54,403 nt of DNA from positions 1-54,403 of the forward strand of contig JAHEIO010000001.1 in the NCBI GenBank assembly GCA_024639325.1, written 5' to 3'. The notes below the pieces were generated by a model. The model was not told the DNA's origin. It did not search any database and worked only from the letters and a program-made list of their open reading frames with translations. Below are positions 37,731 through 42,039 of this stretch, piece after piece. Source of the stretch: Gammaproteobacteria bacterium (lineage in GTDB: Bacteria > Pseudomonadota > Gammaproteobacteria > Arenicellales > JAANXG01). The position numbers and the translations under genes are program-made. Numbering within the stretch: position 1 is the first letter of the stretch; every line of letters starts with the position of its first letter.

Positions 37731-37761
37731 ATTGAACTCCTGCAATCGATTTGACGGTATT

Positions 37762-37788
37762 TTAGCACTCAGTGAGTTGGAGTGCTAA
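37762..37788. promoter_or_regulatory. perfect CIRCE operator (HrcA site) in the rpoH leader
   Basis: TTAGCACTC (37762-37770) and GAGTGCTAA (37780-37788) are separated by exactly 9 nt, identical to the CIRCE consensus for the heat-shock repressor HrcA (TTAGCACTC-N9-GAGTGCTAA). It ends 31 nt upstream of the rpoH start codon and would overlap the promoter -10 and transcription start region. CIRCE is normally at groESL or dnaK operons; here it implies that HrcA represses rpoH. No groESL, dnaK or hrcA gene is in the window. Confidence 0.9.
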
Positions 37789-37815
37789 TAACAGAAAAAG
37801 TTGCATAGAAATCAA
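37786..37815 (-). promoter_or_regulatory. candidate rpoH promoter overlapping CIRCE
   Basis: On the minus strand, TTGATT (37815-37810) and TTATTA (37791-37786) are spaced by 18 nt. The -10 overlaps the upstream CIRCE arm, placing the transcription start inside CIRCE, as expected for an HrcA-repressed promoter. The match to sigma-70 consensus is moderate. Confidence 0.4.
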
Positions 37816-37884: not shown

Positions 37885-38799
37885 TTACTGAGGTTCGATA
37901 CGGCGCAGGTGGCGTCCGACGGCGGTTCGCGCCGCCAGCCAGCCCAGGACGCCGCCGGCCACTAGCAGCATTGAAATCGTTCTCGGGTTTATCCCCGACA
38001 TTGCAAATCCGCCGTGATAGAGCGCCATCAATTCAGCGATCGGACCGTCCAGGAGGCTTAAGCATACTGACACGATAATAATCGCGCACACCGCGCCCAG
38101 CACGCCCTGGATCACGCCCCCATAGAGAAACGGGCGCCGGATGAAACCGTCGGTAGCGCCAATGAGTTTCATGGTCTCGATTTCATCTCTGCGATTCAGG
38201 ATGGCGAGGCGGCTGGTGTTGCTCACGATGATGATCACGGCCAATCCCAGGAGGGCCGCCAGCACGATCACGGCCCTTTGAACGAGCTTCAGAATAACAT
38301 GGAGTCTCTTGACCCAAGCCAGGTCCCATTGAGCCAAGTCCACTTCCGGGCGGGTCTCGATGTCTCTCACCAGGGCTTCGATAACCGCCGGATCGCCAGC
38401 GTCGTCGCTGATATGTATGACGATGGAGGCAGGCAGCGGATTCTCCGACAGTATGTCCAGTGCCTGCCCGAATCCCGAACGGGTTTTGAATTCCTCCAGG
38501 GCCTCGTCCGACGTTATCAGTTCTATGCTTTCTGTCTCCGGTCTTCGAGCCAGCTCCTGCTGCAGGGATAGCACATCCTGTTCCGCTACATTTTGTTTCA
38601 GAAAAACGGAAACCTGGGGGCGTCCCTGCCAGTTTCTGATGACGCTTTTGGCGTTATCGACGAGGAGATAAAGCATGGCCGGCAAGGCCAGGGTGATACC
38701 GATGACGCAGACCGTCATAAGGGTAGAGCCGGGTGCACGCGCCAATTGGCCAACACTGGCCAGCAGCACCTGGACATGCCTCAGCAGGTACTCTGTCAA
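37885..38799 (-). CDS. ftsX: cell division ABC transporter permease-like protein FtsX
   Basis: FtsX with FtsE recruits and activates peptidoglycan hydrolases at the septum. The 304-residue protein has a first helix near 25-47, a periplasmic domain (about 50-165), then three helices in the C-terminal half with the family string RLAILNRRDEIETMKLIGATDGFIRRPFLY (seen around residues 205-234). It starts at TTG 38799, overlapping the ftsE stop (TTGA), with GGAG 5 nt upstream. Its length is somewhat short of E. coli FtsX (352) because the N-terminal cytoplasmic tail is short. Confidence 0.95.
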   Translation of the reverse strand: MTEYLLRHVQVLLASVGQLARAPGSTLMTVCVIGITLALPAMLYLLVDNAKSVIRNWQGRPQVSVFLKQNVAEQDVLSLQQELARRPETESIELITSDEALEEFKTRSGFGQALDILSENPLPASIVIHISDDAGDPAVIEALVRDIETRPEVDLAQWDLAWVKRLHVILKLVQRAVIVLAALLGLAVIIIVSNTSRLAILNRRDEIETMKLIGATDGFIRRPFLYGGVIQGVLGAVCAIIIVSVCLSLLDGPIAELMALYHGGFAMSGINPRTISMLLVAGGVLGWLAARTAVGRHLRRIEPQ

Positions 38800-40683: not shown

Positions 40684-42039
40684 ATGAAAAAAAGTTTGGT
40701 CCTACTTTGCCTGTTCAGCGTGGTTGCGGCGTGTGCCACTGAAAGCGCACGAAAGCCGGCAGCGCCTGATGCCTACGAGAAAGTGCTCGACAACGGGCTG
40801 AAGGTGCTGGTCAAGCCCGATACCCGCGCACCCATCGTGGTATCTCAAATCTGGTACAAGGTCGGCGGCAGCTACGAGCCGGATGGCAAGACCGGGGTAT
40901 CCCACGTTCTGGAGCACATGATGTTCAAAGGCACGAGCACCACGGCGCCCAACGAGTTTTCACGAATCATTTCGGCGCTCGGTGGACAGGAAAATGCTTT
41001 TACCGGTCGCGACTATACGGCTTATTTCCAGACCCTGGAAAAGTCGCACCTGGAGACCGCATTCAAGCTCGAATCCGGGCGAATGCATGATTTGGTATTC
41101 GATACGGCGGAGTTTGAAAAAGAAGTTGAGGTCGTCAAGGAAGAACGGCGCTCGCGCACGGATGACAGTCCTGAGGCGGTAACCTATGAACGGTTCATGG
41201 CCGCGGCATACAAGGAATCCAGTTACCGCAATCCGATAGTGGGCTGGCCCTCGGATCTCGAGGCGATGCGGGTGGAAGATCTTAAAAGCTGGTATTCCAG
41301 CTACTACGCACCGAACAATGCAACACTGGTCGTTGTGGGCGACGTCGAACCCGTTGAGGTATTCGAATTGGCCGAAAAGTACTTTGGCGGGATACCGGCG
41401 CGTGATATACCTGGCATCGTGGATCGTGGCGAACGGCCCCAGTCTGCAAGCCGCCGGATCGAGGTCAGGGCCCCGGCCAAGGTTCCGTATCTCCTGCTCG
41501 GGTATCACGTTCCGGTGATCGCAACGACCAATAACATGGAGGACTGGACGCCCTACGCACTCGAGGTGGCTGCGTATCTGCTCGACGGCGGTAAAAGCGC
41601 CCGGCTACATTCCGAACTCGTGCGCAAGCAGGGAATCGCTTCTTCCACTGGCGTCAGCTACGACCCGCTGGCACGTAAAGCCACGATATTTTTGTTCAGC
41701 GCGAATCCATCGCAAGGTGAAACGGTCGCTGCGGTGGAGTCGGCAATTAAAGAGCAGATCCGGATAATGAGTGAAGAAACTGTATCTGATGAGGAGCTGG
41801 AAAGGGTCAAAGCACAAATCGTCGCCGGCAAGGTCTACCAGCAGGATTCCAGTTTCTATCAGGGCATGCGTCTGGGGCTTCTCGAGACCAACGGGTTGGC
41901 GTGGCAGCTGGGCGAAGAAATTCATCACCGCCTGCGTGCCGTAACCGCTGAGCAGGTACGCGAAGTCGTGAAGCGATATCTGAGGGAGAGCAATTCGACG
42001 GTGGCGGTACTGACCCCCGAATCGGACGCAGAGGGATAG
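40684..42039 (+). CDS. M16 family zinc peptidase, lipoprotein, catalytically complete
   Basis: This pitrilysin/processing-peptidase-like protein is 451 residues with an N-terminal lipoprotein signal (MKKSLVLLCLFSVVAACATES, Cys at residue 17). The inverted zinc motif HVLEH is present (His74, Glu77, His78), with the downstream Glu region around FDTAEFEKEVEVVKEERR. It is paired with a second, motif-less M16 gene 3 nt downstream. Paired active and inactive M16 subunits that work together are known. Substrate is unknown. This position between ftsY and rsmD is conserved in gammaproteobacteria. Confidence 0.93.
   Translation: MKKSLVLLCLFSVVAACATESARKPAAPDAYEKVLDNGLKVLVKPDTRAPIVVSQIWYKVGGSYEPDGKTGVSHVLEHMMFKGTSTTAPNEFSRIISALGGQENAFTGRDYTAYFQTLEKSHLETAFKLESGRMHDLVFDTAEFEKEVEVVKEERRSRTDDSPEAVTYERFMAAAYKESSYRNPIVGWPSDLEAMRVEDLKSWYSSYYAPNNATLVVVGDVEPVEVFELAEKYFGGIPARDIPGIVDRGERPQSASRRIEVRAPAKVPYLLLGYHVPVIATTNNMEDWTPYALEVAAYLLDGGKSARLHSELVRKQGIASSTGVSYDPLARKATIFLFSANPSQGETVAAVESAIKEQIRIMSEETVSDEELERVKAQIVAGKVYQQDSSFYQGMRLGLLETNGLAWQLGEEIHHRLRAVTAEQVREVVKRYLRESNSTVAVLTPESDAEG

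Follow-up and report, generated by a model that had tools for sequence, protein, structure and literature searches.

A CIRCE element sharing bases with predicted sigma-E- and sigma-70-type promoter boxes upstream of rpoH, and its co-occurrence with hrcA in Gammaproteobacteria

We analyzed a stretch of DNA of 54,403 nucleotides (contig JAHEIO010000001.1; hereafter, the window) from the genome of a gammaproteobacterium of the order Arenicellales. On its minus strand, ftsY, ftsE, ftsX, and rpoH follow one another in this order, and a motif scan of the window located a CIRCE element, TTAGCACTC-N9-GAGTGCTAA, with no mismatch at 37762-37788, between ftsX and rpoH (Table 1). A perfect CIRCE 31 nt ahead of the start codon (ATG) of rpoH had been claimed in a preliminary description of this DNA, and this was confirmed, with the identity of rpoH given by TIGR02392. 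When up to three mismatches were allowed, CIRCE was matched once in the window, as compared with 0.01 matches expected from shuffled sequences. Next beyond ftsY, furthermore, a protein encoded on the other strand (40684-42039) has weak M16-type matches (YfmH and pitrilysin), all under the cut-offs.

Table 1. Features at the rpoH locus, in coordinates of the window
Feature	Position	Strand	Basis
ftsX, gene before rpoH	37885..38799	(-)	TIGR00439, over cut-off
Sigma-E-like -35 box, GCAACTT (6/7 to GGAACTT)	37798..37804	(-)	In phase with CIRCE
CIRCE, predicted HrcA operator of rpoH	37762..37788	(-)	Exact match; conserved in relatives
Sigma-E-like -10 box, TCCAA, inside CIRCE	37777..37781	(-)	16 nt after the -35 box
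Extended -10 box, TGCTAAAAT, sigma-70 type	37759..37767	(-)	Right CIRCE half plus three bases; promoter scan
AGGAG, likely ribosome-binding site of rpoH	37737..37741	(-)	Sequence reading
rpoH, sigma-32, 282 aa	36882..37730	(-)	TIGR02392, 382.9 bits (cut-off, 323.1)

The operator had also been said to overlap a plausible promoter, and a promoter scan indeed found a sigma-70-like one, TTAGCA-N18-TAAAAT with TG before the -10 box, which was the one match over 401 scanned bases as compared with 0.2 in shuffled sequences. When 150 rpoH contexts were profiled (151 less one with a short flank), two conserved blocks were evident besides the arms of CIRCE, and most bases of the spacer varied. One block is formed by the bases right after CIRCE, which are A, A, and T in 72, 77, and 90% of the 150 contexts; the right half of CIRCE and AAT together spell TGC-TAAAAT, namely an extended -10 box. 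The other block, GGAACTT, occupies the positions -16 to -10 before CIRCE, and the bases 16 nt past it, where the left half of CIRCE runs into the first bases of the spacer, read TCTAA or TCTCA as the commonest forms in the class. Boxes of the type GGAACTT - 16 nt - TCTRA are what we take to be the promoter boxes and the spacing of sigma-E. In the window, the corresponding boxes are GCAACTT-N16-TCCAA, each of which is one base off the group consensus, GGAACTT-N16-TCTAA/TCTCA. As judged from the sequence, the operator is one that shares bases with both a putative sigma-E-like and a putative sigma-70-like promoter, a point that the preliminary description had missed.

The genome assembly comprises 352 contigs totalling 4.69 Mb and is 95.55% complete. 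In it, hrcA was found on contig C271 (323.4 bits; cut-off, 197.2), and its product has both Pfam domains of HrcA, the DNA-binding and the C-terminal one. Perfect CIRCE sites are two in number genome-wide: the site at rpoH and that at C186:4209-4235, which precedes groES (Cpn10). Of the checks proposed in the preliminary description, hrcA and CIRCE at groESL, the former is thus present and the latter was found at groES. At up to two mismatches, these two sites stand alone (none for the backward consensus used as a control), and a third match, which has three mismatches, does not rise above the background given by the backward control (two per strand). At hrcA itself, no CIRCE was found at up to three mismatches in this genome; given CIRCE at groES and rpoH and none at hrcA, the predicted targets of HrcA here are groES and rpoH. 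Ahead of hrcA, a sigma-32-like promoter, TTGAAA-N12-CGCCAT, was noticed at L004:1279-1302 (11 of 12 bases), which is a single motif match, and the frame after hrcA looks grpE-like when read by eye.

We then compared the regions upstream of rpoH in relatives. All of the 12 other genomes sampled from the family have the site, giving 13/13 with that of the window, each with zero or one mismatch. In the order sample of 60 genomes, rpoH could be scanned in 59 (including G037, whose gene is split between contigs; in G024, the rpoH search gave nothing beyond a paralogue-level match), and CIRCE with up to three mismatches was found at rpoH in 57 of the 59, 42 of these sites being perfect. A match to hrcA was obtained in 58 of the 60 genomes (in two, a fragment only), and two hrcA-bearing genomes of the order, G035 with two copies of rpoH and G057, have no CIRCE at rpoH. 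As regards genomes with two rpoH genes, CIRCE lies at one copy in G091 (L237 and L284) and at neither in G035 (L209 and L210). We also noticed a tandem pair of CIRCE before rpoH, with starts 31-32 bp apart, in L264 (G069), L149 (G017), and L189 (G023); G069 gave no rpoE match at E <=1e-30, and its second operator occupies the place where the sigma-E -35 box would be.

The class was sampled with one genome per family (143 genomes). A match to rpoH at E <=1e-55 was obtained in 130 of them, and the other 13, nine of which have hrcA, were dropped. Genomes were regarded as having hrcA when TIGR00331 was matched at E <=0.001, a few of these matches being fragments under the cut-off, and as having CIRCE at rpoH when a site with up to three mismatches was located within 350 nt upstream. 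The best CIRCE had zero or one mismatch in 83, two or three in 12, and five to nine in 35 of the 130 genomes; the backward consensus never had fewer than five. The site at rpoH was found in 87 of the 93 genomes with hrcA versus 8 of the 37 without (p = 5e-16 when families are taken as independent, as in all p values here), and also at zero or one mismatch, the counts were 76/93 versus 7/37 (p = 3e-11). CIRCE is therefore normally found ahead of rpoH in genomes that retain hrcA. The link between HrcA and rpoH as something special to this genome is not supported, and we reject this idea given that the site was found across the family, order, and class samples.

The exceptions were also inspected. 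Eight genomes (G064, G075, G097, G134, G158, G163, G187, and G194) carry the site with no hrcA match. Four of these, G064, G097, G158, and G163, are 62-85% complete; for the rest, the sample includes hrcA-bearing members of the same genus (G075) or family (G134, G187, and G194), so that the gene was possibly missed or newly lost in these cases. The site of G134 has three mismatches, and that of G136, which also has no hrcA match, is shortened and was counted as none; these degenerate sites look like relics. Conversely, six genomes with hrcA have no site at rpoH (G072, G085, G096, G131, G172, and G180), although a CIRCE whose spacer is shorter can be read in G172 and a half-site in G096. Ahead of rpoH, L171 (G172, with hrcA) and L245 (G136, without) thus have sites that resemble CIRCE but in which the spacer or an arm is shortened.

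A chance match was rejected as an explanation for the operator in view of the 0.01 matches expected in shuffled sequences and the way in which the site tracks hrcA in the class sample. More broadly, a site that arose by chance or was inherited as a remnant with no present function is most improbable: besides that expectation for the window, the arms are constant while most spacer bases vary, and the site is mostly absent or degenerate where hrcA was not found. The control of rpoH by HrcA, as put forward in the preliminary description, is upheld by inference from the presence of hrcA, the CIRCE at groES, and the conservation of the site together with hrcA, and the function of the site as an operator is a prediction. 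Among the findings that this description had named as refuting, neither an absence of hrcA nor a lack of conservation in relatives was observed.

Spread beyond these samples was surveyed by scanning genome contigs for the core of CIRCE with a sigma-70-family motif located after it at the appropriate distance. At least 118 stretches were obtained, and the groups named in their titles include Beta-, Gamma-, and Zetaproteobacteria as well as Desulfuromonadales; because the scan was pre-selected for CIRCE, this number indicates the breadth of the spread and not its frequency. In the 118 listed, the frame after the site begins like RpoH when read by eye (seven are short, 86-232 aa).

The sigma-E reading of the upstream block was examined by counting GGAACTT with at least 5/7 identity at offsets of -17 to -15 from CIRCE. 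This -35 box was found in 61 of 95 class contexts, as compared with 1-8 in nine control windows; as the motif was first seen in a profile including the class sample, the class count alone is no blind test. Better tests are provided by the named set, by the association with rpoE, and by the coupling between the two boxes. Among the matches listed in the named set, 80 of 116 contexts have the -35 box (two of the 118 were dropped because of a short flank; controls, 2-7), and when L005, L061, and L122, which are identical to sampled genomes, were removed, the count among the matches listed was 78 of 113 (controls, 2-7). With respect to rpoE, which scored above the cut-off in 97 of the 143 class genomes, the -35 box is present in 60 of the 81 contexts from such genomes versus 1 of the 14 from the others (one-sided p = 2.8e-6). 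In this lone exception, G129, the rpoE match is truncated and, at 224.7 bits, narrowly misses the cut-off of 236.15. The two boxes are also coupled: in the class, the -10 form inside CIRCE occurs in 46 of 61 contexts with the -35 box and in 11 of 34 without (one-sided p = 5e-5), and the same comparison among the matches listed in the named set gave 56/78 versus 14/35 (p = 1.4e-3). The AT behind CIRCE is independent of the -35 box (p = 0.8 and 1.0).

CIRCE elements away from rpoH (40 among the matches listed: 28 at groES, 9 at hrcA, and 3 unassigned) served as a further control. The -35 box, the -10 form, and the AT (xAT) after CIRCE are present in 61, 57, and 67 of the 95 class contexts of rpoH, respectively, versus 1, 0, and 1 of the 28 groES sites and one each of the 9 hrcA sites among the matches listed. 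Being common at rpoH and rare at the CIRCE of groES or hrcA, the promoter boxes belong to rpoH and not to CIRCE itself. Furthermore, among the 35 class leaders with no CIRCE, a looser search found a sigma-E-like pair of boxes in 6 of the 10 from genomes with rpoE versus 1 of the other 25, as would be expected if the sigma-E promoter can outlive the operator. In the genome of the window, rpoE is on C296 (311.7 bits; the same cut-off), adjoined by a gene for an RseA_N protein, and all 13 sampled family members including that of the window have the -35 box at 5/7 or better in phase with CIRCE.

The sigma-E block is not universal across CIRCE-bearing rpoH contexts. Of 56 order contexts, 25 have the -35 box, 23 have the -10 form, and 45 have the AT, and the -35 box is absent in all nine sampled contexts of the family f10 and in the records of Pseudoalteromonas, Rheinheimera, and Alishewanella examined. 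That several groups keep CIRCE with no GGAACTT block would be in line with HrcA repressing rpoH via CIRCE while the sigma-E-like boxes are unused and the flanks serve the binding of HrcA or another factor. We regard this as unlikely, however, because GGAACTT lies 16 nt from TCTAA or TCTCA with the same spacing as at rpoH of E. coli, the block follows rpoE (60/81 versus 1/14), and it is present in 1 of the 28 groES sites among the matches listed.

CIRCE is known to affect the stability of groE mRNA, and the site at rpoH might likewise act mainly at the level of RNA, where a hairpin in a leader transcribed from an upstream promoter would alter the stability or translation of rpoH mRNA. The inverted repeat is indeed located 31 nt before the start codon, and when G-U pairs are allowed, the two arms can pair at all nine positions in 77 of the 95 class contexts; nonetheless, an arm pair is broken in the other 18 (such variation in the arms is compatible with a hairpin), conserved promoter boxes lie outside the repeat, transcripts of both inferred promoters would start within or after it, and a site that follows hrcA is a better fit to a DNA operator. 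We thus consider an action mainly through RNA to be very unlikely. The RNA of the rpoH leader and early coding region was predicted to fold no more stably than shuffled sequences (z = 0.61), and Rfam gave one match, far below the threshold, both of which leave room for an mRNA thermosensor like that known in E. coli, which HrcA control was suggested in the preliminary description to replace or supplement. Autoregulation by sigma-32 was considered as well and rejected, given that no site like TTGAAA-N12-15-CCCCAT (at least 9/12) was found in the 270 nt before rpoH.

CIRCE probably functions here as an operator through which HrcA represses transcription of rpoH, and which forms an integral part of the core promoters of this gene. 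From the observed sites and genes, their conservation, and their co-occurrence with hrcA and rpoE, we infer HrcA binding, promoter use, and repression at rpoH. In Bacillus, GroEL is known to control HrcA, which is released when GroEL is busy. At normal temperature, free GroEL would keep HrcA folded and bound on CIRCE, where it would cover the sigma-E -10 box with the left half and the extended sigma-70 -10 box with the right half of the operator. When misfolded proteins occupy GroE, HrcA would be released, both promoters would open, and increased sigma-32 would drive the chaperone genes; sigma-32 and the release of CIRCE would then raise GroE, itself controlled by CIRCE, so that HrcA is reactivated and the loop is closed. 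Transcription of rpoH would in this way report the GroE load through HrcA and envelope stress through sigma-E, and HrcA could shut off the operator through which the sigma-E input would have to pass. DnaK controls sigma-32, and the activity and stability of sigma-32 may report the DnaK load as a second layer, as in E. coli; the sigma-32-like promoter before hrcA would add feedback.

The rpoH gene of E. coli K-12 resembles that of the window in adjoining ftsX and in having GAACTT-N16-TCTGA ahead, which starts 120 nt before the ATG and is presumably part of the sigma-E promoter P3, but has no CIRCE (the best match has eight mismatches); in the hrcA search, E. coli was not among the control genomes with a match. 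HrcA and CIRCE control groESL in Bacillus subtilis and many other bacteria, and in the present genome, which has the gene for the same repressor, the same operator is found at groES. The target there is a chaperone, whereas it is a regulator at rpoH, and the groES sites (28 among the matches listed) are largely without the promoter boxes fused to the operator at rpoH. Among the papers listed in a literature search, we recognized none that dealt with an rpoH-associated CIRCE in the class or with CIRCE overlapping sigma-E boxes. Permina and Gelfand (2003) reportedly surveyed beta, gamma, and epsilon proteobacteria and may already list rpoH as a target of HrcA, and we therefore do not claim that the link between CIRCE and rpoH in the class is unpublished; Ueki and Lovley (2007) and Rhodius (2006) are said to have dealt with Geobacter RpoH and the sigma-E regulon, respectively.

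In 2004, a CIRCE site was predicted ahead of rpoH in Geobacter sulfurreducens (PMC545781, Table 8). A perfect TTAGCACTC-N9-GAGTGCTAA is given there a short distance upstream of rpoH (position -51) and also at groESL, as in the present genome, but this species belongs to another phylum and has CIRCE also at hrcA (PMC545781). In three Desulfuromonadales-type records of our own set, the sigma-E -35 box was matched at 2/7 in two and 5/7 in one. We lean, by a modest degree, toward the reading that gating of rpoH by HrcA through a 27-bp operator supplying the -10 boxes for both sigma-E and sigma-70 is ancestral in Gammaproteobacteria in the wide sense, and that the E. coli type, in which the sigma-E promoter stands free and HrcA is absent, was left behind when hrcA was lost.

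The circuits of the HrcA repressor and the sigma-32 activator are usually described as parallel, but as far as their sites allow us to read them, these two classic heat-shock controls look wired in series here, with a link that is lacking in E. coli. If this is true, the serial arrangement would hold for most members of the class that carry HrcA, with the model of E. coli as a derived exception. Transcription of rpoH would then be a simultaneous sensor of GroE load and envelope stress, which predicts phenotypes for hrcA, groEL, and rpoE mutants, and the placement of one operator across two -10 boxes that are read differently would constitute a compact three-input promoter logic.
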